From assembly GCF_019112545.1 (NCBI RefSeq), contig NW_025064890.1:1451783-1515782 (forward strand): 64,000 nucleotides of DNA, read 5' to 3'. How positions within the stretch are numbered: position 1 is the first letter of the stretch; the number at the start of each line of letters is the position of its first letter. Below the pieces are notes generated by a model. That model made no database searches. It was not told the DNA's origin and worked only from the letters and a program-made list of their open reading frames with translations. Positions 5,341 through 50,080 of the stretch are shown piece after piece. Made by a program: the position numbers and the translations under genes. The stretch is from Guyanagaster necrorhizus. Its lineage: Eukaryota; Basidiomycota; Agaricomycetes; Agaricales; Physalacriaceae.

Positions 5341-5669
5341 ATCATTGCTTCAAGGCATATTATTGGAATGCTATATGTATCCATGCACTTGATCTCAATG
5401 ATCTTGGAGAGTTTGAGATCTTCAAGCTTGATCTTCTTGAAGCTATGACTATTGTTCATGATGCTTGGGCAAATGTCAGCAGTGAAATAATAGCAAACTG
5501 CTAGAAACACACTGGTATAATTTCTGATAATGCATCTGAGTCATAGTCCATCACACCATCTAATGATTTCTAAGGCACCTCACTTCTCAAGTCTGTATAG
5601 AATCTTATTTGTGACTTTGCCTCAACAGATAAATACATGCTTCCAGAGATCAAACAGACATTGCTGATC
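5341..5669 (-). repeat. inverted repeat, left arm (transposase C-terminal region)
   Basis: About 325 bp here are the near-exact reverse complement of 6167-6490. The right arm is the copy that is contiguous with the transposase body. The left arm is a partial second copy lying beyond the gene's end, so together they form a long hairpin with a ~500-bp loop. Confidence 0.85.
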
Positions 5670-10925: not shown

Positions 10926-11322
10926 TCCAATCTGCTGGATCTCCATATCATACCCATGGTGGCTTGAGCATGGCTTCCCTTTGGGGGCCCGCATGAGAGA
11001 GCTGTGGCAACCAAACAATGTTTGTTTGACCCCAACCTCTCACATCCATGTCATGCAACTCCAGTCTCTCCAATCCATCATTGACATCCAGCCTCTCCTC
11101 TCAAACTCAAGCAGGCATAGACAAGACATGTTTAGCAAGATTGACTTAGGCTGCTGTCTGGCTTATTCGGAGGGAGCGCCGGTTTAGACACGTTGTCGTC
11201 ATGGTCACACTATACGTCACTCACTCTCTTCCCTAATTATCAGTTTCTTGCCTGCGTATCCGGCGATGAAAATTATCATCCCTCGCTACAACAAGCCTTT
11301 GAACACATCTCTCAGACAAGCG

Positions 11323-11387
11323 CCCTGTGTGGTGTATCGATTAGTATACATGCACGTCTCCGCTAGGTTCGACTCCCAGCTACAGGG
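11323..11387 (+). repeat. tRNA-like element, family A
   Basis: 65 nt. The acceptor-like ends CCCTGTG and TACAGGG pair over 7 bp (one G-T). A D-arm-like GTGT..ATAC stem (4 bp) holds a 10-nt loop. The T-arm CTAGG/CCCAG carries the loop TTCGACT. Only 13 nt separate the D- and T-arms, against about 23 in a true tRNA, so no normal anticodon arm can form. Confidence 0.7.
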
Positions 11388-11999: not shown

Positions 12000-12061
12000 T
12001 CTCTGCAGTAGTACATCTGTCACTGCAATGTACTATGCTGGGTTCAACTCCCAGTCAGAGA
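12000..12061 (+). repeat. tRNA-like element, family C
   Basis: 62 nt. TCTCTGC and TCAGAGA pair at 6 of 7 positions. A GTAC..GTAC stem encloses the middle. A 5-bp T-arm CTGGG/CCCAG carries the loop TTCAACT. The anticodon arm is absent or fused with the D-arm. Confidence 0.65.
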
Positions 12062-12203
12062 GTAGAGCAAGGAGTGGCTAGATTATCTTTTTAAATTCCT
12101 TTCAGTAGACATCCTCAAACCTGAATCAATCTTCCCCACACCAGCTGGTACCCACAATTTTTCGTGAAGCTCGCGAATAAACTTGTTCGTCTGATGTCTA
12201 ATA

Positions 12204-14067
12204 TGCTAATTTTGGTCTTTAATTTTGTCTGCGCATTTTCAAAGACTCCTAGTCAGATGCTGGCATTCCGTTTCCTGGCTGGTATTGGCGGAAGTGCACC
12301 GCTGGCCGTGCGTATGCGAGCCACAATAGGCGAGCCGTACCTAGTTAATTCTAATTAGCTCGGTGGGGGAGTCATTAACGATTGCTGGAGCGTCAAGGAA
12401 CGTGGTCGGGCAGTGACTTTATATGCCCTGGCGCCTCTCTTGGGTCCAATCATTGGGCCGATCGCTGGCGCATGGATTGCCATGAAGACGACGTGGAAAT
12501 GAATTGTGAGCATCACCTTTATCCCTAGATTTTTTTCCAGTCATTACTTTTCTCCAGTTCTGGTCTATATCCATCGCTACTGTCTTCGTCCAAGCCATCT
12601 CTTTCTTTTGGCTCAAAGAGAGTAAGCGCGATGCCCAAGTAGCTATATCTCACTCAGATTGTTGCCACTGGCCTTTGCGCCCCATTTACTGGCTCGAAAA
12701 GCAAGGAAGCTGCAAAATGCTAGCAGCGGGGAAGGGAATGTCAGATATATTACGAGACATCAACAGAATCCAATCAAGTACACGATGACTGACACCCGGG
12801 AATTACTTCTGACCTCTATCTTACTGGGCCTCTCGTCCAAAAGCTTCTACTCTACCCGGTCGTTTTACTTCTAACCGAACCTACGGCCCAGCTACTAGGA
12901 ATATATCTAGCCTATATGTAAGGTGTATGTCATCGTCTGTCATAATATGCTAATTATTTCATCGATTGTCTTCAGATACGGTAGGACATTGCGGGAGAAC
13001 GTTTCGTTTAATTGCTTACTGACTCCTCTTGATTATCTAGGGCTGGTCTATCGTATGCTCTACCTTCTCACTTTCTGGGACATCTCTCTCACCGTGTTTA
13101 CAGTGATACTGACGTCGATCCCTGATATATACGTCGTTGTATATCACGAGAGTATCGGAATTGCAGGATTGCATTACATCGCCTTTGGAATTGGCCTTTA
13201 CAGTGGAGCGCAAATCACGAATGCGATCCTGGATGGACTGTATCTCCGCCTCAGCGCTCACTACGGGACCGAAGGCCGTCCTGAATTTCGAATTCGCAAG
13301 TGTCGTCCGTTACTATGTACATCATTGTTACTTACGAGCAACTGTGAAGCCATTATGCTGCCCGCCACCCTGTTCGTGCCTATAGGATTGTTCATTACAG
13401 GTGCGTCAGGGCAGAAGCTTTGCACTCTGTACGACGTTATGGGGATATTTCATTTCCAGGATGGACTGTGTCAAGCGGAGTGCACTGGATTGTCCCAGAT
13501 ATTGTGAGTGTCTTTGCCCGTGAGAACTTCAAAAGCTTACAGCGCCCTGAGCAGGGACTTGTTATCACCGGGTGAAGATTTATTTTACTGACGGTTGTAA
13601 GAGACTGAAACCTGATTCTTATCTACAAATAGAATGGGCATCGCCGTGAACTGGCAAGCGATACAAACATATATCATCGATACCTACACCGTTCATGCAG
13701 CACCAGGTAAGTCAATGGCCTGTACAAGTACTGATGCCGACCTAACCAATTATACAGCTCTCGGAGGGCTCTATTTGCTTCGCTAGCTCGTCGGTTTTGC
13801 CTTGCCATTAGGCTCTCCTAGCTTGTCAACGATCATGATCTTTCGTACTTTTTCCCGATACCGAGCTCCGAACGTAGGTACCAGCATTTAGGGTATGGGA
13901 AAGGAAACACCATACTAGCTAATTACACTTTGGGCCTGGAATTCCCGATGTAAGTCCTCGCTCCAATCAGGCTCATTCTCAGATTCATCGCGCAAGCTAG
14001 GGTCTTGATTTTCTGGTTTTGGGGGACCGTTCCACGTGGAAAAAGTGCAACGGCTATCCATAGTTAG
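12204..14067 (+). pseudogene. MFS multidrug transporter, 5'-truncated second copy
   Basis: This copy is homologous in inverted orientation to the fuller gene at 60,544-62,877, and the homology runs past the stop to about 14,140. It lacks the first exons: homology begins at about 12,204, exactly where the 1-kb module ends. It keeps TPSQMLAFRFLAGIGGSAPL, LYALAPLLGPIIGPIAGAW, VVVYHESIGIAGLHYIAFGI and the C-terminal SATAIHS plus stop. It has nonsense changes the other copy lacks: TGG to TGA at about 12,500 (in TTWK-W) and TCG to TAG at about 13,784 (in LLR-S). It is therefore a pseudogene made by a duplication that was later disabled. Confidence 0.85.
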
Positions 14068-14735
14068 GTATCCATAATGGTTTCAGAATGGACCCAGATA
14101 AGTTAGCACTTACTTGAAGGATGAAGGGCCTAGACTGCACAATAAGTACTTACCTAGAATTTTGAATTGCTTTCTTCTGCCCTAATAAAGGTCGAGATCA
14201 CTCTCCCAGAAGATCGGACCTAGGGCTTCATCGACATCTCGGAAAAATGGAGACGGATGTTTTTTGGCATGGAGATGTTACATATGTGAAATTGCAAAAA
14301 AAAAAAATAGGGCTACCACCTTGCTAGGTTTTGGTAGCATTAGAGTCTATCTGACGGAGCCCAGAGTGAGATTCAATTTGACCAATTATAATGTCTATCA
14401 TCATAACTCTTACTCGGCGTGGTAGCACTTGGACACAAACAACTGGAATCTCCTCAGAAGGACGTGGACCATCATTTCAAGATGAAAACTTTGGTTATGA
14501 TTCATACTGGATGGAACCGATGGGTAGGAACCTAGGGAAAATATAATGAGTGACTAACGACAGCCGCAGATTGCCCATCCGTTCGTCCATCAATCTGTGG
14601 ATCGACATTCAGATCCATAGGAGGGACAAAATACAAACATATTAGACGTCATAGCTTGACATGAAAATTGCATAATTCGAGAAAGGTATTGTACTCTGCC
14701 ATTGGTCAATCTGCCTGAGTCGTAGTCATCCCTCG
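14068..14735. other. no recognised gene
   Basis: The first ~75 bases still match the region downstream of the MFS gene at 60.47 kb. The rest holds no recognisable gene; an A-run lies at 14,287. Confidence 0.5.
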
Positions 14736-15092
14736 TCTTACCCCCTTCAGCATCTCTGTCGACGAAACGGTTAGTGTACATCTTGATTCCCTCTCAGAGA
14801 TCGTCAAGCGGTAGGCCCGGGAGTTGATTTCAAACCTTTCATCTTCCGCTTCTCTGGTTCCTGATTTTCGAGGGGACATGTGCAGGCTCGGACGGTCAGT
14901 GGGCCAGCGCGCCGAGAATTAGACGTATATATAGAAATGTTTAACCAGTCGCACATGTGAACTTTCGGCATAGAATGTGCTGCCTTGAATAATTAGATGG
15001 AGCAATAAGACATACAACTACAAGTGCGATCTGAAGAGCGTAGACCGGGTTCTTGAAGAGACACAAGACCTGCTCGAAGAATCTCTATCCCG
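14736..15092 (-). pseudogene. fragment related to the Zn2Cys6 factor gene (copy a)
   Basis: It is nearly the same as 16,671-17,012. Near 15,040-15,092 the minus strand matches the exon of the transcription factor that reads SSGWRFFEQVRIFKNAIYTPP (36,570-36,660). The remainder of the shared block is not recognisable as coding. It is a short, truncated fragment. Confidence 0.55.
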
Positions 15093-15407: not shown

Positions 15408-15474
15408 ATATCTCATAGTGTAATGGTCATGCAAAGCAAAGCCCACTGGGTTCGACTCCCAGATGAAAAGATAT
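15408..15474 (+). repeat. tRNA-like element, family B
   Basis: 67 nt closed by ATATCT and AGATAT. It contains a box-A-like TAGTGTAATGG and a perfect 5-bp T-arm CTGGG/CCCAG with loop TTCGACT, followed by a few extra bases before the closing stem. The element at 48,465-48,526 has the same layout and similar text. Confidence 0.65.
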
Positions 15475-15773
15475 CTGTCCAGATTGTGTACCTTTTATTT
15501 AAAATTACTAATCCTTTTTGGTGCCCACCTCTGCTGATAGGTTCCTGGTTAGCTGGGTCGACTTGCCCAGCGCACACTTCCTTCTTGCTGTTTGTAGCCA
15601 TAACAACTGAGATCTTGGAAGTTTATGCCAGGTCAACGGGCGGCCAGGGCGCGTTCAAATTTGGGAGCGCGGGTTTAGACGCGTCGTCGTCATGGCTGAA
15701 GGGAAAATCCGATGTGTAACAGTCACACATACCTCACTAAAAAAAGCCTTTGAACACGTCTCTCAGACAAGCA

Positions 15774-15838
15774 CCCTGTGTGGTGTATCGGTTAGTATAC
15801 ATGCACGCCTCCGCTAGGTTCGACTCCCTGCTTCAGGG
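15774..15838 (+). repeat. tRNA-like element, family A (copy 2)
   Basis: 65 nt, the partner of 11,323-11,387. Box-A-like TGGTGTATCGGTTAG and T-loop TTCGACT are kept. The closing stem has decayed to about 5 bp (CCCTG/CAGGG) and the T-stem has a mismatch. Confidence 0.65.
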
Positions 15839-16462: not shown

Positions 16463-16524
16463 TCTCTGCAGTAGCACATCTGCCACTGCAATGTACTCCG
16501 CTGGGTTCAACTCCCAGTCAGAGA
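16463..16524 (+). repeat. tRNA-like element, family C (copy 2)
   Basis: 62 nt, the partner of 12,000-12,061. It keeps the same TCTCTGC/TCAGAGA ends and the same CTGGG/CCCAG T-arm with loop TTCAACT. Changes fall in the middle region. Confidence 0.65.
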
Positions 16525-16670
16525 GTGGATAAGATCCTCTAGGCTAGCTTTTTAAATTTCTTTCAGTAGGCACCCTCAAGCCTGAATCAATCTTCCCCAC
16601 CCCATCTGGTACCCACAATTTTTCGTGAAGACCGCGGATAAACTTGTTCGTCTGATGTCTAATGCGCTAT

Positions 16671-26190: not shown

Positions 26191-26509
26191 GTCAGTAGGG
26201 AGTAATTATGGATTGAGGAGGAGACTTGAATGGTCGAAGCTGGCTAGTAAGTACCAGTGATGGAAAAGGTGAAGTCCCTTGTTCGGTGGGGTCCTTTTGT
26301 ATCATTTTTCGAGTGAGTCAAGTAAATACAAAGTAGGCAGTCGGAGCACCAGAAATGGATCCAGCTAAGCGCAGGAACCGGCTCACGAGTTTATTTCCGA
26401 CACTTGTTCGCCGATCTCCAAATTATTTTCTTGGCTAACGCCGGCGCTGATCCACATGATTTAGACCTTAACGTCAACCAGCTCAACCAGCGACCACCAC
26501 TAGGCAGAG

Positions 26510-27868
26510 ATGGCGACTACAAATTCGGGTACATCTAATTCCGAAAATTCAGTCTTCTTGCGTCCTTCTGACTCAGAGACCTGTTTGAGTGATTTTGACA
26601 AGCTGGATGCTTCGGATATGTTCTGGGCGAGCCACCAGCCCTTTTTAGCCAATGTGGGGTACATGTTGCGCCCTCGATACCACCCTGGCTGGCGCCCTTC
26701 TTGGATCCGAAAAGACGGGACGAAGAGACGGAGAAGAGACGGAGATTTCGTGCATCATTTGAGGACCAACATACCCCCATGGTAAGAATGATGCTATTTT
26801 GAAAATATTCGAATTGCCGCACTGGTATTTTGCCGTCGTTATAGACGCCGCTCGTCCTGGATGCCATCAGAATGAAAGACAAGACCAAGTCGTCCTCCGC
26901 ATTACACGTACAGACACTAACGAGCTGTCCTTGGCGAAACGTCTGTGTGACCCTACTCTACTACAGAATTCCCGAAACCATACGGTTCCCATCCTCGATA
27001 TAATACCGATTCCTGACGACGAAGAGCAGCGTGTTTTCATTGCCATGCCAATGCTTAAAGTCTTTGATGATCCACCGTTTCATTGTCGGTCAGAATTTGT
27101 TGATGCTTTTCGTCAGCTTCTGGAGGCAGGTATCTGTGCCCTGATATCTTTATCTTCTAACTTTCGTTTGAAGGGTCTCGACTTTATGCACAGCCTCAAT
27201 ATAGCTCATGTGTAAGTGTGCTGTGGTCTTTATCTTCTATATCTGATGCAGAGTTCTGTAGCGACGTGAGTCCACTCAATTTTCTGATGGACTCGTCGAA
27301 AGTGTGTCTCAAAGGCTACCATTATGCCAACGATCTGAGTTATGACGGCGTACATTGAAGCCTTCCGACTCGTCCTCGATGTCGCGTTGGGCCAGTACGA
27401 TATTATATCATCGACTTTGAGAGCGCTCAGGAATGCCCGGAAGGCAAAGAGAATGCCGAGGCTAAGAGGCCTCTCCGATGTGGTACAAAGACGTCACCCG
27501 AGTTTTCTCTCTGTCTTCCGTGCAATCCATTCAAATTAGATGTGTACAACGCTGGCGCCACATTCTTCGAACTTTGTGAGGTAAGGATCTATGGACTTTT
27601 ATATCCGCATCGCGTCGATTTACTCTGCTAATAGAGATATCATGGGATGGATGATTTAAGGCCCCTTCTACTCGAGATGATGTCTGACGATCCGTTCGTC
27701 AGACCTAATATGGCAGAGGCTCTAAGAAGGCTCGACGAGCTCGTGTCCTCGAAGGACAAATTATGGCTTCGCGGTCAGATCTGGAAGCTTCGCGGATTGG
27801 TAAAACCTTCTTCACATATGGTCCAGTATCTGTGGCGGAAGTTTCCGGTACTTCTTCCTTATTTCTGA
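26510..27868 (+). pseudogene. kinase-like protein, near full-length copy 2, frameshifted
   Basis: Layout matches the degenerate protein-kinase-like genes common in Agaricomycetes. There is an N-terminal SDFDKLDASDMFW..HPGWRPSWI lead, a catalytic-loop relative split by an intron (SLNIAHV..DVSPLNFLMD), YYIIDFESA in place of the DFG segment, NPFKLDVYNAGATFFELCE, and a C-terminal YLWRKFPVLLPYF. It is damaged. An 11-bp tandem duplication near 26,725 shifts the frame, and near 26,890 one G is missing where copy 3 has AAGGTCGT. The start is taken from the ATG in GAGATGGCGAC. Even intact copies lack the DFG aspartate-glycine, so they may be pseudokinases. Confidence 0.7.
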
Positions 27869-28974
27869 CCTTAATCGCTCTTTGTCAGTTTGCTATCGTT
27901 CTCTTTCATTGCTTTCTGTCTTGCGGTGGGAATTGAATACTATCATTCATATCTTTTACTTCCCATAAAGCTCTCTTTATCATCGGAGTTTTATATGTAT
28001 ACCGTTACATGTAGTACCACGTTCTTTCGGACACCCTTCATAATTTATGACTTGACAATTAATCCTACCTTTCCTCGTGGCACCCTGTTCCTTTTTTGCT
28101 CGAAGCCTCGCCATTTACCTGATATCGACTGGCTAGTCGGGCGGCAAAAAAGAGGGTTTTCGGGATCATAGAAAAGGGTCGCAACTTGGCGATCCTTCAA
28201 ACTAAGGGACCTTCAGCAGGTACACAGGCAACTTTTCGGTGCTATTAAACTAGGTACCCGGTACCTAGGTGGGCGTCCATGTTCACTGTCGTAATGTGGA
28301 GCTGATTCCTCAGGTCCGTGGTTTCGAAGTTAGTCTCGTCGTGTATGTTTCAATGACGTTATTATGGATATTGAGCACATGATATGTAGCGTAGAGAAGA
28401 ACATCATTCACCATCATGCTCCACGGTGCATTAGAACTGGCCCATAGACTACGCGATCATCTTTGAGGCTTCTTCATTAAGATGGATTGTCGAATCTCGA
28501 TGCAAGTACAAACAAAGCATCCATTCATCCCCTTCGGCTCAGACACATGGATCTCCTCTCAAATTTCGTCACTTCACAAGCGCCTCGAGGTTCGCGCCTG
28601 TTCGACTGACTCATCGGTGCCAATGTCGAGGGGCAGGGTTAGAAGCGGCGATTCTACAGTGAAGATAAGGATGTGCTTGGGAATTAAGGTGTTGTATACA
28701 CGTATATGGTACCTCTGTAGATGTTAAGGGCTTCTTGATTGTGGGATCGGTGCGCAAGCTCGGGATGGCGCAAGGGTCGTAGGACCGTTTGTATGCATTG
28801 TGCCTGATGTTTAGTAACAGCTACGTTTGCGAACAATAATGGCCCAATGGTCCTTGAACGTTGAGGTACAGCATCTTTTTCCCGGCTTCAGAAAGTATAC
28901 CACCGACTGAGGATCTGAGAGCCAATGGAAGAGAAGCTGCCACACTATTCGATACAGCAAAAGGGTGGCCAAGG
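27869..28974. other. downstream segment shared with copy 1; no gene
   Basis: About 600 bp after copy 2 (27,870-28,500) match the bases after copy 1 (23,907-24,840). They contain hydrophobic frames on the plus strand that look like remains of a small membrane protein. No intact gene is supported. Confidence 0.5.
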
Positions 28975-42120: not shown

Positions 42121-42212
42121 CAACAAAGTTTGAGCACGGATTTCGGATCTCTAATGCTTGCAGTAACAATTCCGTAAGATTCATATCAAAAAAAGTCATT
42201 CTTCAACTTGAC

Positions 42213-44030: not shown

Positions 44031-44399
44031 GGGATCGACAACCAGTTCTTGCACCTAGTAATCTTTTCGCCACGAGTCTGAGACTCATGATTGCCAATAT
44101 GCACGTTGCAAAAAATGAGGGGGGGGGCAAGCAAGCCATTTTCGTTTGCGGTTCGAAACCGTTTACATATCCAAAACCTTGACTGACACCTCGCCTTCAC
44201 AAAATAGACCAGGACCCCCTTCCGGTGCTTAGCCACACTTGAAGATAAATCGTAGCGGTCACAGCTCACAAGGCAGTCAAAACCGATGACTTGATGAAAA
44301 TCTACTCCACACATTTGAAAACCAAACGGCATGCATGCGATTACCCCCGCCCTTCTATGAAGGGCAGACAAAAGAATGCCATGGACAAATGTCACCAGC

Positions 44400-44454
44400 T
44401 CTCTGGTTGGGAGTCGAACCCGACAGCATGTAGTGGCCGATGCACTATCAGAGA
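44400..44454 (-). repeat. tRNA-like element (array 1), family C-like
   Basis: 55 nt. Ends TCTCTGA/CCAGAGA (6 of 7). Box-A-like TAGTGCATCGG; T-loop TTCGACT in a GGG/CCC stem. The same end sequences occur in the family C elements at 12,000 and 16,463. Confidence 0.6.
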
Positions 44455-44807
44455 ATGAGTCCTGGCAGGAATCAGATCAAGTAATGAGGGTATTATAAAA
44501 TGTTGGGTGTGCAGGAGACACAGCTATGATGAATGTGTTTAGGAATTTAGAACGAGCGAGTGCCAGGGGAACGGAATAGATTACTTATTGATGTTCTTCT
44601 GTAAGAGATGGGTCTTGCACCTAAAGTCCTATCGGCGCCACCCGGTCCAGCCCAAGAGTTGAAAGAACTAGATATAGTCGTTGATGCGCTCATTGTAAAG
44701 TTAGTTATGTAATGAATCACCTATGTGTTTTGCTCGAAAATCAGAACTTGCGAGCCCTAGCAGAAACGACAGTGGAGACACAAAACCATTACCAAGTTCT
44801 TCAAGAT

Positions 44808-44870
44808 GATCTTTTGGGGAATCGAACCCGAGATGTGATGTAAAGTACTAACCGTTGCGCTACAGAGATC
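44808..44870 (-). repeat. tRNA-like element (array 2), family E
   Basis: 63 nt. Ends GATCTCT/AAAGATC (6 of 7). GTAGCGCAACGGTTAGTAC is close to a true box A and D-arm. T-loop TTCGATT with box B GGTTCGATTCC intact. Confidence 0.65.
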
Positions 44871-44994
44871 GTGGTAGGGTTTAGGACAAAGACAAGTTCT
44901 TGCCTGAAGAACCGCATCCGTCTGCATTTTTCTTCTGAAATCAGAAATGTAACAGACAGAAAGGCAAGAAAAAGTTCTCACCGGTGATATTATT

Positions 44995-45055
44995 AATCTC
45001 TGAGGGAACTGAACCCATGACGCGATGTACACTAACCATTGTACCGACAGAGACC
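44995..45055 (-). repeat. tRNA-like element (array 3), family E; unit 1
   Basis: 61 nt. Ends GGTCTCT/AGAGATT pair over 7 bp with two wobbles. GGTACAATGGTTAGTGTAC forms a box-A-bearing D-arm. T-loop TTCAGTT. The first element of composite unit 1. Confidence 0.65.
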
Positions 45056-45180
45056 GTAGTAACGTATGAAACAACTTGAAGAAGATGAGGTCTTCCTGAA
45101 TAAGTTGCCGCACCCCTGGCGGAGAATATCTCTTGATGTAGAGGAAATGCCAAAATAAAAATGATAACACCCTTCTGATT

Positions 45181-45234
45181 TTCTCGCTGGGAGTCGAACC
45201 CGGCAGACGATATCCTGTTTCCAGACAGTCAAAG
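45181..45234 (-). repeat. tRNA-like element (array 4), family G; unit 1
   Basis: About 54 nt with a clear T-arm (GGG/CCC, loop TTCGACT) but no good box A. The equivalent in unit 2 is 45,927. Confidence 0.5.
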
Positions 45235-45521
45235 CTGACATTAAAGTGAAGTGAAAAGGAACGCACCAAATCCCGTAGACTGGAAGTAGGAGTATAATAG
45301 AAGAGAAACGGTTCTACGTTCGCGCTTTCAAAGTCAACGTATATGGATCGAGCCATATCACTCCGACACATATAAGCATACCAAGTTGATTGCTTGGTTT
45401 AATCTTTAGCGAAGACAGTCCATGTGAACACGGATTGCTAGCTAGATGATCAACTGGAACCTGGAGTCGTCGCTGGGTTTGCCAAAAAAAAAAAACAATC
45501 AAGCAACAGTAAGAAGGAATA

Positions 45522-45582
45522 CCCTGTAGCTGGAGTCGAACCTAGTGAATGTGTGTGTACGGACCGATACACCATTAAAGGG
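45522..45582 (-). repeat. tRNA-like element (array 5), family A; unit 1
   Basis: 61 nt. Shares CTAGGTTCGACTCCAGC and the end TACAGGG with the family A elements at 11,323 and 15,774. Box-A-like TGGTGTATCGGT. Closing stem CCC/GGG plus mismatches. Confidence 0.65.
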
Positions 45583-45692
45583 ACAAAGAAAACTAGTCAA
45601 GGAAGCGTACATCTTCTCCGTAAATTCAGAACAGCAGAAGTGGAACGGAGGCATGACAAAAAGTTTGAAAGCCTTCAATCGTACTGGGCATT

Positions 45693-45753
45693 GATCTCTA
45701 AGAGAATCGAACGCATGATGTGGTTTCCACTAACCGTTGCACTGAAAGAGACC
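45693..45753 (-). repeat. tRNA-like element (array 6), family E; unit 2
   Basis: 61 nt, the same size as its unit-1 partner at 44,995. Ends GGTCTCT/AGAGATC pair over all 7 bp. Box-A-like CAGTGCAACGGTTAGTG; T-loop TTCGATT. Confidence 0.65.
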
Positions 45754-45926
45754 ACGGTGGAGAAAGAGGGAGAGGGGGAGAGAGACTAGAAGAAACAAGA
45801 AGACGAGGTCCTTGAACCTTGCCGAACAAATTGCGGTACTTCAAGTGGAGAATCGTGGAGAATAGTTCTTGCTGTCTATCGAACAAAAAGCCGAATAAAA
45901 TATGGAGGCTACAGCATGTGCAGATT

Positions 45927-45981
45927 TTCTCACCTGCATTCAAACCCAGCAGATTGGGTGCTTATTTCCAGTTAGTCAAAA
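45927..45981 (-). repeat. tRNA-like element (array 7), family G; unit 2
   Basis: About 55 nt. T-loop text GGGTTTGAATGC in place of GGGTTCGACTCC; the flanks match the element at 45,181, including CCAG.CAGTCAAA on the plus strand. Strongly decayed. Confidence 0.45.
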
Positions 45982-46207
45982 GCGATGTTGAACACAGACC
46001 AAAGAACCCCGCAGGCTGGGAATACAACAAAAATGCCCACTCTTTCAGTTACCCCAAAGTCGATTTATAACTGAGCGGTGAGCACAAGTTGTCAAGTGTC
46101 TGCAGTGAGGACAACCAGAAGATTATGAAAGAGAGAACTTGAATTCGGGCTCTGGGACTCTAGAGTCATCTCCGGGTTTGCGAAAACGATGACAACTCGC
46201 GGCATAA

Positions 46208-46280
46208 CCCTGTAGCTGGGAATTGAACCTAGCTTCCGTGAAGGAGATGCGAGTGCACGAACCGATGCACCATCAAAGGG
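46208..46280 (-). repeat. tRNA-like element (array 8), family A, 73 nt; unit 2
   Basis: Full-length member of family A. CCCTTTG/TACAGGG pair at 6 of 7. Box-A-like ATGGTGCATCGGTTCGTGCAC is present. CATCT-CCTTCAC-GGAAG forms an anticodon-arm-like hairpin whose loop holds TTC (the Glu anticodon) but with C in place of U33. T-arm CTAGG/CCCAG with loop TTCAATT. It suggests that family A came from tRNA-Glu and that the shorter copies lost the anticodon arm. Confidence 0.6.
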
Positions 46281-47079
46281 ATGGAAATCTACGCAGAGGA
46301 GTGCATACTATCTCCAAAGTACAAGTACAAGCCTTCGGCGAGGGAAAGATCAGACACAATTCGCGCAGTTCAAATAGCTAGTCATTATGTACTTGTTCAT
46401 CGAGTTCAAAAGACTGGTTGTTCGCGAGGAGTCGCGTTTTTTTTGTAACCAAGTCGCCAGAGAAGTTTTGGAGCACGGTACGCAGGCTCTCGTCCAGAAA
46501 CCGTGGTCCAGTGCATACTCAGACAGTCACTTCAAGGAAGATGTCCTGCCAAATCTGCTGAATTGGGGCGCCAATGACACTGGAGAATAGAGTAAGATTG
46601 AAGCGGGACCATGATGTAGATACCATTCAACGCCGCGTAAGCGACGGTAGTAAATGCGCCTTCGCACATAGAATTGCCACTGCCTGTCGGCGATAAACCA
46701 GAAAGGTTGTGACCGTTATGGCTGTGTGACAGTTCCGATTTTGAATTTGCAGTTTCTCCTTGAATCTCATCCAGCATAAGCTCGCACACTCCCTGTTCCT
46801 CACGCGTCATCTTTCTGTTTGATGTTGGCCGGCGAGTAATGCCTCTCGCTCATCTTCGACCGAGTCAGGCTGCAGCTCACCAATCGCATAGCAGCATTCC
46901 GTGTACCGTTTGAGATGACTTACAGTACAAAAGGCAGGGGAACTGGTGGCAGGCATCCACCAAAATATGGAGAAATTTGCAGAGATCCAAGGGAGAGAAA
47001 TCAACGATGATACCCTTCAATAGCACTAAACGCGTTCGTTCCCCATCCTCGAAACGGAACGCGCGTCAATCGAGAAGAC
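46281..47079. other. no recognised gene
   Basis: Two minus-strand frames (46,810-46,532 and 47,004-46,807) are open and could be exons of one gene (IGELQPDSVEDEREALLAG, then REEQGVCELMLDEIQGE), but neither shows a known domain. Confidence 0.35.
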
Positions 47080-47830
47080 CGCGCGAGAAACACACCAATA
47101 TGGTCCCACAGACCGCCATGCCTTCGACGCTCCCAATCCTCAGCCCGACACCCCGATCCTCGTCTTCTTATACGGTGGCGGATTCAACACAGGTGCACGC
47201 ACGCTCCCGGCCCCCGCGTCCATCATCTACCACAACCTCGGCTCCTTCACTACCCGCGGGTTCATCACCGTCGTCCCCGACTACCGCCTTGCCGACTCTC
47301 GTGTACAGTTCCCTGGCGAGCGCGATGCAATGCAATGGGTCATGGACAACCTGTCCTTCCCCGACTCTGACACTATCTCCTCGGCCATTCGGCGGGGGCG
47401 ATGAACATGTTCACCATCCTCGCCCTCCTGGAGCTGCTGTACTCTTCCACTTTGCAACCCCCGTATCAAAGGCGCGGCCCGTACACGTTTGAGGACATGC
47501 CAGCAGATATGAAAAAATTCCCGTCGGGCTGTACTACGGTGCAGGCGTTGAGACCAAGCAGAGAGTGCCATTAACGTTGTTAGATTCGGCGAGTGTACCG
47601 AATTCGAAGCTGTTGCTCGATATTGGTGAGAGGGATATCCCTGTTTGCACCCCGCTCTGGAGAAATTCGGCGGAGCTTTGAAGACAGGAGGCACGTCGTA
47701 CGAGGAGTTTATCGCCCAGGGGGTATAATCACGTTAGTTTGGTGTTTGCGCTTGGGACAGGGCAGGGTGAGGAGTGGGCGGAGGACGCGGTCAAGTGGAT
47801 TTATGCCCCGCGGGCCTTCATTACATGACC
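47080..47830 (+). pseudogene. alpha/beta hydrolase (carboxylesterase-like), frameshifted
   Basis: One frame reads LVFLYGGGFNTGARTLPAP, with the GGGF oxyanion motif of the hormone-sensitive-lipase/esterase type, then FITVVPDYRLADSRVQFPGERDAM. After a frame change near 47,375, another frame carries the nucleophile elbow GHSAGAMNMFTILALLELLY. Later blocks (ALEKFGGALKTGGTSYEEF) are in yet another frame and lead into stops. At least two frameshifts and no start make it dead. It has higher GC than its surroundings and sits between tRNA-like elements, so it may have been carried in as a fragment. Confidence 0.7.
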
Positions 47831-47986
47831 TATCACATTCTGTGGACGCGTTAGACCAGCATGCAGAGAGCTCCTGAATGAAAAATAGCATGTTGCGATA
47901 CTACATAGCCCAATAGCAATAGCTTTCCTCTAATCGGTGCGAGGATTTACATCCATAAAATGACGCCAAAGTTGCCGCAGAAATAT

Positions 47987-48045
47987 CGCTCCAGCTGGGA
48001 GTCGAACCCATCCCTCTGTCCGCAACAACCAATGCACAAGGAACG
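47987..48045 (-). repeat. tRNA-like element (array 9)
   Basis: 59 nt. Ends CGTTCCT/TGGAGCG pair at 6 of 7. T-loop TTCGACT in GGG/CCC. Box A is weak (TGCATTGGTTG). Confidence 0.55.
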
Positions 48046-48205
48046 TATAACCTATGGCGCAATGGAATTACCTTTCCCCGAGGTCTCGAGGGCTAACATA
48101 AACATCCTGGGTGTGGATTTGCAATTCAAGTGTTACCACGAGATAAGGTGGAAGTACGTCGACCCACATGGCCCCAAATTAAAAAGATAGCCACAACGCT
48201 TCGAG

Positions 48206-48265
48206 GTCTCTTTGCCTAGAAGTCGAATCCAGTGCCCATCACGTAACCGATATACGACGGGAGAC
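48206..48265 (-). repeat. tRNA-like element (array 10), family B
   Basis: 60 nt. GTCTCCCGTCGTATATCGGTTA and T-loop TTCGACT are shared with the next element; the ends GTCTCCC and GAGAC pair over 4-5 bp. Confidence 0.55.
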
Positions 48266-48464
48266 AAATGCTCTAGTATATATTACCATGATGGCAACAA
48301 CGACGTCGCCTCTCCATCAAAGTCTTCTGTCTTTTTGTTTCATGGATACAAGAAACGGATCGGCTTGGGGGAGAGAACTATGTCTTGTAGTCCCTTGAAA
48401 TGGGAGTACATTCATATTAGTAGAGGCGTGCAGAGTCCGCCCAGGCAAAAATGGATGCATTGAG

Positions 48465-48526
48465 TATCTCCTTACCTGGGAGTCGAACCCAGAAGCGTTT
48501 GCATAACCTTTATACTACGGGAGACA
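48465..48526 (-). repeat. tRNA-like element (array 11), family B
   Basis: 62 nt. Ends TGTCTCC/GGAGATA pair over 7 bp (one wobble). Box-A-like GTAGTATAAAGGTTATGCAAA; perfect T-arm CTGGG/CCCAG with TTCGACT, then four extra bases. Text close to the element at 15,408. Confidence 0.65.
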
Positions 48527-48680
48527 GGACTCGAGCCACAAACGTAGCCATGACTCCACAGCAAATCACTACGGCACAGTCCTGTTTCCTTCCGCATTTT
48601 TGTCCTGGCCAAAGATTGGACAGAGTAGAATCTCCGTCGAAATACAGAAAAGGACGAACAGCTCAAGTAGTGTTGGATAA

Positions 48681-48733
48681 TGTCTAGTTGGGAGTCGAAC
48701 CCAGTTCTCATGCCAATGCTATACACCAAGAAA
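48681..48733 (-). repeat. tRNA-like element (array 12)
   Basis: About 53 nt. Box-A-like TTGGTGTATAGCATTGGCAT; T-arm GGG/CCC with TTCGACT. Closing stem unclear. Confidence 0.45.
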
Positions 48734-48734
48734 T

Positions 48735-48801
48735 TCAAATTGCAGCCAGTGTCCGAACCGAATTCCTTGCTCGCAGTAGCCGATACACTACATAAATCGC
48801 A
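48735..48801 (-). repeat. tRNA-like element (array 13)
   Basis: About 67 nt. Box-A-like TGTAGTGTATCGGCTACTGC; box-B-like CGGTTCGGACAC is altered. Closing stem weak. Confidence 0.4.
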
Positions 48802-48999
48802 GCGGGGTGAGGCCAGGTTCGAATTTTCCCAGGAAGCTTCAGCCAATGGGCCGTAAAGGGCAAGGACTGCATGGCCGACGGATGCGGGGATCAGGTTCCC
48901 GATTCTTGGCCTGCAGCTATGGACAGAGGAAATGTACGGGAAAGGAACAAGCAGGTAAGCAAGCTTCTGCTTGAAAGAAAAGGGCGATTGAGAATTTCC

Positions 49000-49043
49000 C
49001 ATATCTCCAGCCAGGAATCGAGACCAATTCACTACCGGAGCAC
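49000..49043 (-). repeat. tRNA-like element (array 14), truncated
   Basis: Short copy: GCTCCGGTAGTGAATTGGTC next to CTCGATTCCTGGCTGGAG. The T-loop core is present, the middle is deleted, and GCTCC/GGAG close it. Confidence 0.35.
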
Positions 49044-49197
49044 AGCGAACCTCGAACAGGGGGTGGTACTCCCGTGTGTTGTTGAGAGCGGCGGGAAGAG
49101 AAAAATATACAGAGTCGAACAAGGAGGCAGAGATACGAAACCTCTCGGGATACATCGCACATCCAGGATGGTAGTATAACTTAGAGGCGATCCTGCA

Positions 49198-49221
49198 AGA
49201 GAGAGAGAGAGAGAGAGAGAG
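49198..49221 (+). repeat. (GA)n microsatellite
   Basis: About 12 GA units in a row, within the tRNA-like array. Confidence 0.9.
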
Positions 49222-49375
49222 GGCAGTGGCAGAGCTGATAATCGAGTGTGTGGCAGACTTGGGGATTCCATGTCGTTGAGCGGAAAGAAAGAAGGCCAGG
49301 TTTTGCTTCAGAGTGCTGGCAGTGTGGAGCAAGTTCGACGATTGCTGTCCTATCCAAAAAAAATATCCATCCCTC

Positions 49376-49433
49376 CATGCTTCGGTTAGGAATCGAACCC
49401 AACATTCCAATATACCACCGACGAACAGAGACC
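49376..49433 (-). repeat. tRNA-like element (array 15)
   Basis: About 58 nt. Starts with the family E text GGTCTCTGTTCGTCGG, keeps box B GGTTCGATTCC, but the 3' end (CCGAAGCATGG) does not pair with the 5' end. Confidence 0.45.
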
Positions 49434-49692
49434 ACCATCCAGAAGAAACGTTCTGTCTCTTGATCTCGCCACACAAAATCTCTCCTTTCGCGATAAGAAT
49501 AAGGTTTATGATGGTGTGCTTAGAGAAACAGCATCGTCCGTTCGGGACGTTGGTTGAGGGCCGAGTCTCGACTCCGACGCTCAAACGATGCATTGTCGTT
49601 CATTTAATGAAGCACCAGCGCTTGAAATAGATGGTGTACTAGTGGCCAGCCTGACTCTGACTAAAAACAAGAGCGCTGCGCATTGTCAAAGA

Positions 49693-49761
49693 TTCTCGCA
49701 GGTTGGGAGTCGAACCTAATATATACACGTGGCTTGCTGCACCCGATATACAACCAGAGAA
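49693..49761 (-). repeat. tRNA-like element (array 16)
   Basis: 69 nt, with near-normal spacing. TTCTC/GAGAA close it (5 bp). Box-A-like GGTTGTATATCGGGTGCA; T-arm TAGG/CCCA with TTCGACT. Confidence 0.5.
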
Positions 49762-50030
49762 CTGGAAATGGGAGAAGATATCGGCATGGCTTTTACTCCT
49801 CAGTGAGTCAGGAAAGGGTTACCAGTCCAGCGTCTCAGAAAGGACGCGGCACGGTAAACGAATTATTCTTCCCGCGACTCGGCGCTAGTGTGTTTGTGGG
49901 AATAAAATGAGCATCTGACGTTTGAGCTCCAGAGTGCCTTGCTCACTGCTCAGGTTTTGGTTTAGATGTAGCCATTGGAGACAAACCAATTTCGCGCCAA
50001 AGACGTGTTCCGGCTTCTTAAACTCTGGTT

Positions 50031-50080
50031 GTGCAAACGCTAAAACAGGCGCGTGCACTAACCGATAGACTATCAAAGAC
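50031..50080 (-). repeat. tRNA-like element (array 17), 5' half only
   Basis: TTTGATAGTCTATCGGTTAGTGCAC is a clear box-A-like D-arm; the expected T-arm is missing. Confidence 0.4.

Follow-up and report, generated by a model that had tools for sequence, protein, structure and literature searches.

A minus-strand array of tRNA-like elements without anticodon arms in Guyanagaster necrorhizus: a putative RNA polymerase III gene family, probably derived from tRNA-Asp(GUC)

Guyanagaster necrorhizus is a wood-rotting fungus and a relative of the honey mushrooms (Armillaria). We analysed 64,000 nucleotides (nt) of its genome (NCBI RefSeq assembly GCF_019112545.1; 53.3 Mb in 109 contigs), positions 1,451,783 to 1,515,782 of contig NW_025064890.1; this stretch is hereafter called the window, its 3' end is the end of the contig, and no telomere repeats were found in it. 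Between 44.4 and 50.1 kb the minus strand carries a series of short transfer RNA (tRNA)-like units, each with a T arm, a box-A-like D arm and complementary ends. Allowing up to one mismatch, the window contains 25 copies of the T-arm motif GGTTCGANTCC, compared to 3.1±1.8 in shuffled sequence (0 of 100 shuffles reach 25). Eleven of the 25 copies are on the minus strand at 44.4–49.8 kb; ten belong to the T arms of elements described here, the exception being that at 48527.

A covariance model with a 7-bp acceptor stem, a 4-bp D stem and a 5-bp T stem was built from 18 aligned elements picked by eye, 12 from the window and six from other loci, and gave 23 matches at E≤10 across the whole window. 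Fourteen elements of 49–73 nt were found at 44.4–50.1 kb with E<0.01, nine of them with E<1e-9, and all 14 are on the minus strand, as an earlier, sequence-only reading of this DNA had proposed; its count of about 17 is slightly above ours. One further array match, 48739–48798, is weak (E 0.38). The relatives which that reading placed at 11–16 kb are also present, as five plus-strand matches at 11.3–16.5 kb (E<1e-11). There is a weak match at 14752 (E 0.08), and two more on the minus strand at 42212 (E 1.5e-5) and 32825 (E 5.3e-5). The nine strongest array matches are themselves seeds of the model and the five at 11–16 kb are three seeds and two copies of seeds, so their match is in part built in, whereas the five weaker array matches at E<0.01 are non-seeds. 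A specificity control, 92 kb around 30 host tRNA loci, gave nine matches at E≤1, of which three have E<0.01, all three being host tRNA genes. The best control match scores 26 bits, so array members at 19–26 bits do not outscore ordinary tRNA genes of other isotypes.

The array begins with a 57-nt element lacking an anticodon arm (44399..44455, 60.1 bits), with a run of four T residues (T4) 25 nt beyond its 3' end; a copy at another locus (L018) differs at 1 of 57 positions. Family A includes 44808..44870 (acceptor GATCT/AGATC, 46.3 bits, T4 run downstream), 44996..45054 (42.4 bits, T5 run) and 45693..45752 (52.3 bits, T5 run). To family E belong 45522..45582 (51.3 bits, T12 run) and the 73-nt element 46208..46280 (52.3 bits, T4 run), which has a remnant of the anticodon region, and a short family C element with a weak D arm lies at 45180..45228 (19.3 bits, E 0.0021, T5 run). 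Further along are a weak element at 47987..48044 (22.5 bits, T4 run), elements at 48208..48265 (52.3 bits, T5 run) and 48468..48525 (acceptor TCTCC/GGAGA, 54.7 bits, T5 run), another weak one at 48681..48734 (22.4 bits, T4 run), and elements at 49379..49432 (24.4 bits, T8 run) and 49695..49761 (49.3 bits, T5 run). The last member, 50023..50080 (23.4 bits), is decayed: the D arm and the start of the tRNA-Asp anticodon arm are kept, the T arm is lost, and no T4 run lies within 40 nt. On the plus strand, 11322..11387 (49.3 bits) is a relative of family E with BLAST homology to 46206–46280, and is followed by 12001..12062 (55.8 bits) and 15408..15470 (50.7 bits); 15773..15838 (48.0 bits) and 16464..16525 (48.9 bits) are copies of 11322 and 12001, respectively, in a duplicated segment (84.5%).

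ARAGORN reported no tRNA in the window, also when introns were allowed, and Rfam gave no match at gathering thresholds and nothing useful in the region at E≤10. No full cloverleaf with an anticodon arm was found among the elements by ARAGORN, by Rfam or in the armless alignment. The earlier reading was right in seeing here tRNA-like units that lack an anticodon arm, fall into families and are locally expanded, rather than ordinary diverged tRNA genes. A tandem repeat finder detected no array period in the region. A regular monomer was considered and rejected: the spacing is mostly 170–400 nt, with one gap of 1.7 kb and no common spacer.

The elements were compared to 29 entries representing 31 host tRNA genes (two same-named pairs were merged; Phe, Tyr, Trp, Cys, His and Pro are missing from the set), and the best host match was the intron-bearing tRNA-Asp(GUC) in 19 of 20 elements. 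Some of the reference gene strings are partly doubled, the only effect of which is to raise the scores of non-Asp references, and array members 45180, 47987, 48681 and 49379 were left out of the comparison. Element 45693 matches only the intronless tRNA-Asp form, and narrowly. The exception to the tRNA-Asp match is a unit of about 40 nt at 48998–49042 (minus strand), in which a D-arm-like part runs directly into a T-loop-like part between paired ends, and which has no covariance-model match at E≤10. In common with the host intron-bearing tRNA-Asp(GUC) genes the elements have the D arm GTATATCGGTTAGTAC, the T arm CTGGGTTCGACTCCCAG, the acceptor TCTCTGG/CCAGAGA, and a trailer followed by a T-run; they differ in that the anticodon arm and intron are missing or reduced and that acceptors and linkers vary between units. 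The acceptor stem, the D arm with box A and the T arm with box B are retained, and the anticodon arm is gone in most. With the exception of 50023–50080, the elements carry the box A, box B and T-run terminator of a tRNA gene. The stretch of tRNA-Asp from D arm to anticodon is found with at most one mismatch at ten places. Within the isotypes compared the elements derive from a tRNA gene, as pseudogenes do, and their source is likely the host tRNA-Asp(GUC).

Twenty further loci, L002–L021, were selected around matches to the T-arm pattern, so their element density differs from that of the genome. Together with the window they span 264 kb and contain 85 covariance-model matches at E≤1; the 69 of these with E<0.01 form the set used below, the 16 weaker ones being excluded. 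Among the places carrying the tRNA-Asp stretch from D arm to anticodon, ARAGORN with introns allowed identified tRNA-Asp(gtc) with introns of 19–22 nt at L006, L009, L014 and L021, and tRNA-Asn at L016. A reduced unit is found within the same 10-kb stretch at L006 and L009, a weak one only at L014 (E 0.09), and none at L016 or L021. The forms make up a graded series, from near-intact genes of 90–95 nt through forms of 80–97 nt with damaged anticodon arms to those of 42–73 nt, which have a short linker in place of the anticodon arm.

The intact tRNA-Asp genes at L021:4910-5002, L009:4951-5041, L014:4898-4992 and L006:8235-8328 have common exons, each with a different intron, and intron turnover is fast inside this one tRNA gene family. 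At L007 (contig C40, 235–245 kb), T arms followed by a T-run occur at 2813, 3041, 3168, 4506 and 6177 and are unmatched by the tRNA-Asp-like model at E<0.01; they are possibly a further family of reduced RNA polymerase III (Pol III) units from another tRNA.

Pol III terminators accompany nearly all of the elements. A run of at least four T residues starts no more than 40 nt past the 3' end in 67 of the 69 matches, at distances of 9–39 nt, compared to 12.7±3.3 of 69 at random positions in the same loci (largest of 300 draws, 22) and 6 of 69 on the mirrored upstream side. Runs of five or more are within 40 nt in 39 matches, against 4.8±2.1 at random positions. Terminators are present in all forms: 5 of 5 near-intact genes, 9 of 9 other forms of at least 80 nt, and 53 of 55 forms shorter than 80 nt. 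Host tRNA genes have similar trailers, with a T-run at 10–28 nt in 24 of 31, and T-arm matches outside the model matches have one in 27 of 48 cases. Upstream, the search for a TATA-like signal showed only a mild rise in A+T. Across the genome the pattern of T arm plus terminator gives 336 rows, which overlap and include true tRNAs, against 16 for the control; a genome-wide count of box-A-like sequences was discarded, the pattern giving 81 and its reversed control 173.

The two strands of the acceptor stem change together. In a set chosen by T arm and T-run with pairing ignored, 67 candidates were reduced to 54 by removing close copies, intact tRNA genes being included; a matching 5' strand (at least 6 of 7 positions, wobble pairs counted half) is present in 33 of the 54, compared to 16.8±3.1 in shuffles (largest of 60, 24). 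We also used 34 rows, taken from the first 56 of the 85 matches after removal of the five near-intact tRNA-Asp rows and of any row sharing over 72% identity with one before it; some of the 34 are seeds. Of 238 acceptor pairs in these rows 166 are standard, compared to 147.4±4.0 when 3' strands are reassigned among units (0 of 2000); D stems have 92 pairs against 81.7±3.6 shuffled (7 of 2000) and T stems 154 against 147.2±1.8 (4 of 2000). In the alignment of all 85 rows both sides have changed in 94 cells, against 43.6±5.7 (0 of 500), and all slid controls are lower. Acceptors that differ from the tRNA-Asp pair on both strands include TCTTTGG/CTAAAGA (L013), TTTCCGG/CTGGAAA (L015) and TGTCTGA/GCAGACA (L017).

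The elements have spread by tandem and segmental DNA duplication. The segment 43210..48166 (minus strand) is repeated on contig C65 at 108.6–113.5 kb (89%), and largely repeated on contig C9 at 693.7–698.1 kb, in two pieces (87% and 92%) of which the smaller is inverted. Within the array, a three-element unit of families E-C-A is tandemly duplicated (44992–45614 and 45690–46313, minus strand), as seen in three BLAST self-matches in the same order. No mobile unit with a common body was found: among 2346 match pairs, 150-nt similarity clearly above chance was found downstream in 34 and upstream in 26, and most of the flank-sharing pairs are copies of duplicated segments.

These duplicates allow rates of change to be compared within 22 pairs, each counted once, from alignments of at least 80% identity and at least 250 columns with a T-run within 60 nt. 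Trailers diverge at 0.190 per site and flanks at 0.099 (odds ratio 2.15, p 4e-8), and in 18 of 22 pairs the trailer is the more divergent of the two (Wilcoxon p 0.0006). Per-site divergence is 0.084 in the upstream flank, 0.110 in the downstream flank and 0.103 in the leader; within the units it is 0.060 in the 5' acceptor, 0.105 in the D arm, 0.146 in the linker, 0.086 in the T arm and 0.094 in the 3' acceptor, the linker being above the arms (p 0.012). The low value for the T-run, 0.045, is partly built in, since the T-run was used in choosing units. Transcription-associated mutagenesis is described in PMC8113476 as raising mutation in the immediate flanks of tRNA genes whose bodies are conserved, and set beside that account the fast trailer would fit real transcription. 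Being the fastest-changing part, trailers may be either free of constraint or diversifying.

On balance we think it probable, from sequence evidence, that the array belongs to a multigene family whose members are Pol III genes for tRNA-like RNAs lacking an anticodon, derived from tRNA-Asp(GUC) and spread by duplication. Since paired ends and the Pol III start and stop signals have apparently been kept, the elements may encode small structured RNAs of a new kind. The sequence itself shows the origin from tRNA-Asp (within the isotypes compared), the armless form, the terminators, the co-variation of acceptor strands, the duplications and the fast trailers; from these we infer that the units are transcribed and processed and that selection acts on the RNA. 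Each unit would consist of box A in the D arm, box B in the T arm, a trailer of 9–39 nt and a T-run terminator, and its predicted product is an RNA of 50–75 nt with an acceptor stem, D arm and T arm, in which a short linker replaces the anticodon arm and which would be incapable of decoding. La, RNase P and tRNase Z would act on such an RNA, and tRNase Z would free a U-ended trailer from it. Copies would arise by tandem and segmental duplication, some decaying later, and the family as a whole would keep a functional promoter, a terminator and a paired acceptor while flanks drift beyond recognition. Loss of the anticodon arm would stop transcribed extra copies from misreading codons. As to a role, we can only guess at a structured decoy or regulator that acts on partners of tRNA processing or of Asp-tRNA, or at a supply of U-ended trailer RNAs. 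A stronger proposal, which we regard as unlikely, is that a nuclear gene family encodes stable tRNA-like RNAs of a new class, which arose from tRNA-Asp by loss of the anticodon arm and were amplified into dozens of diverse Pol III genes, and that the acceptor-D-T body or the many different U-ended trailers perform a dedicated cellular job.

The main rival to the Pol III gene reading is a birth-and-death graveyard, in which tRNA-Asp duplicates in arrays decay without function, and terminators and stems persist because the scan sees young copies; we consider this possible but rather doubtful. The graded series and decayed members such as 50023–50080, which lacks both T arm and terminator, speak for it, as does the similar divergence of arms and flanks between recent duplicates. 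Against it, the lowest-scoring matches retain their terminators (7 of 7 below 22 bits and 12 of 14 at 22–30 bits), and acceptor strands co-vary even in the set chosen irrespective of pairing. Moreover, when matches are grouped by flank similarity, 40 families have no intact gene and in 38 of these every member has a T-run, although flanks are unalignable between families; neutral simulation at 20% divergence per lineage retains the T-run at 0.55–0.61 for a T4–T5 ancestor and 0.79 for a T8 ancestor. The earlier suggestion of a decaying tRNA cluster is thus right for some copies, and it does not account for terminators in 67 of 69 matches or for acceptor strands that have changed together. Both earlier proposals, spreading repeat and decaying cluster, miss these features, which have been kept outside the tRNA body.

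Several observations weigh against the Pol III gene reading and temper the tests above. The covariance model favours paired sequences, so that the 34-row and 85-row tests lean towards structure, and kinship among the sequences inflates both. When the 18 seeds are simply aligned with MAFFT, the excess of paired cells is only moderate (70.9% against 67.1±1.4; 5 of 500), changes on both sides number 8 against 6.2±1.5 (100 of 500), and further pair types are no more frequent than in shuffles. Fold energies are unremarkable, 2 of 12 elements having a z-score under -2. The simulation of T-run retention presumes that unalignable flanks reflect at least about 20% change per lineage, a drift inferred because flanks do not align between families. 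In the recent duplicates, whose 22 pairs are partly non-independent (some L002 and L019 units are repeated), the arms have 98 mismatches in 1091 aligned sites (0.090, against 0.099 in flanks), and T arms diverge at 0.112 against 0.143 for the rest when pairs are counted from both sides. With arms and flanks diverging at similar rates, strong present-day constraint on the arms cannot be claimed. Neutral decay of promoter, terminator and stems is at odds with the long-term tests and compatible with the recent duplicates.

Two other explanations are less likely. Arrays of TFIIIC/Pol III sites might act as chromatin or replication barriers, blocking the spread of heterochromatin or stalling forks, with RNA as a by-product; we judge this improbable. 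Box A and box B are kept, arrays are head-to-tail among duplicated segments, and PMC2040200 describes clustered box A and box B in fission yeast barriers, as here, with cen1 tRNA gene barriers requiring both TFIIIC and Pol III. According to the same paper, however, B-box barriers bind TFIIIC without Pol III, and would have no need of terminators; the elements, by comparison, keep both terminator and acceptor stem, and co-variation of the acceptor is not expected of an element acting at the DNA level. A tRNA-derived short interspersed nuclear element or other retroposon is highly improbable, for although the promoter part is tRNA-like and many copies cluster on several contigs, there is no common body or tail, the array runs head-to-tail on one strand, and the terminator directly follows the tRNA part.

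Several other features were noted in the window. One protein that it encodes, named F-box by its sources, has 98% identity over 89% of its length to a Guyanagaster necrorhizus protein. Between the two halves of the array, at 46450–47900, is a broken alpha/beta hydrolase-like gene that is co-duplicated on contig C65; in one piece it matches the Pfam family BD-FAE at 24.9 bits, just under the cut-off of 26.8. Inverted copies at 12206–14732 and 62405–59874 are 86.8% identical over 2.5 kb, one of them sitting among the plus-strand tRNA-like units at 11–16 kb; each has a reading frame of 198 amino acids, with no Pfam match in the one copy tested. A shorter inverted pair, 5346–5667 and 6485–6164 (322 bases, 98.4%), lies in the low-GC (0.36–0.41) first 10 kb and is perhaps a young mobile element, and a further inverted repeat, 26481–27872 and 30356–28971, is 76.7% identical over 1.4 kb.

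Other RNAs made by Pol III or with tRNA-like form and no tRNA function are familiar: viral TMERs and mascRNA have a tRNA-like fold and are cut by tRNase Z. The same fold and cutting would be expected of the elements, which differ in being a nuclear fungal multigene family, arrayed and apparently derived from tRNA-Asp. In the truncated mitochondrial tRNAs known from nematodes and mites it is the D or T arm that is missing and the anticodon that remains; the elements likewise lack one arm and are the reverse case, being nuclear and without the anticodon arm. Tandem tRNA-derived units are known from tRNA pseudogenes and gene clusters, such as the Arabidopsis SYY cluster (PMC12308677); in comparison to these, the elements keep terminators and co-varying acceptor strands though the anticodon arm is gone. 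The U-ended trailers of pre-tRNA released by tRNase Z cleavage are termed 3' U tRNA-derived fragments in PMC3899978, and by their anatomy all units with a terminator would be expected to yield such a trailer. The element trailers are less conserved than the flanks, not more. Among the literature matches listed, mostly from open-access journals, we found no report of arrays of this kind in Guyanagaster, Armillaria or any other fungus, which is not proof of absence.

If the elements are transcribed, this genome would make non-decoding tRNA bodies in bulk under structural constraint, a natural separation of the processing and binding functions of tRNA from decoding. A further consequence would be that a class of Pol III genes escapes search tools built around an anticodon arm, both tRNA finders such as ARAGORN and family models such as those of Rfam.

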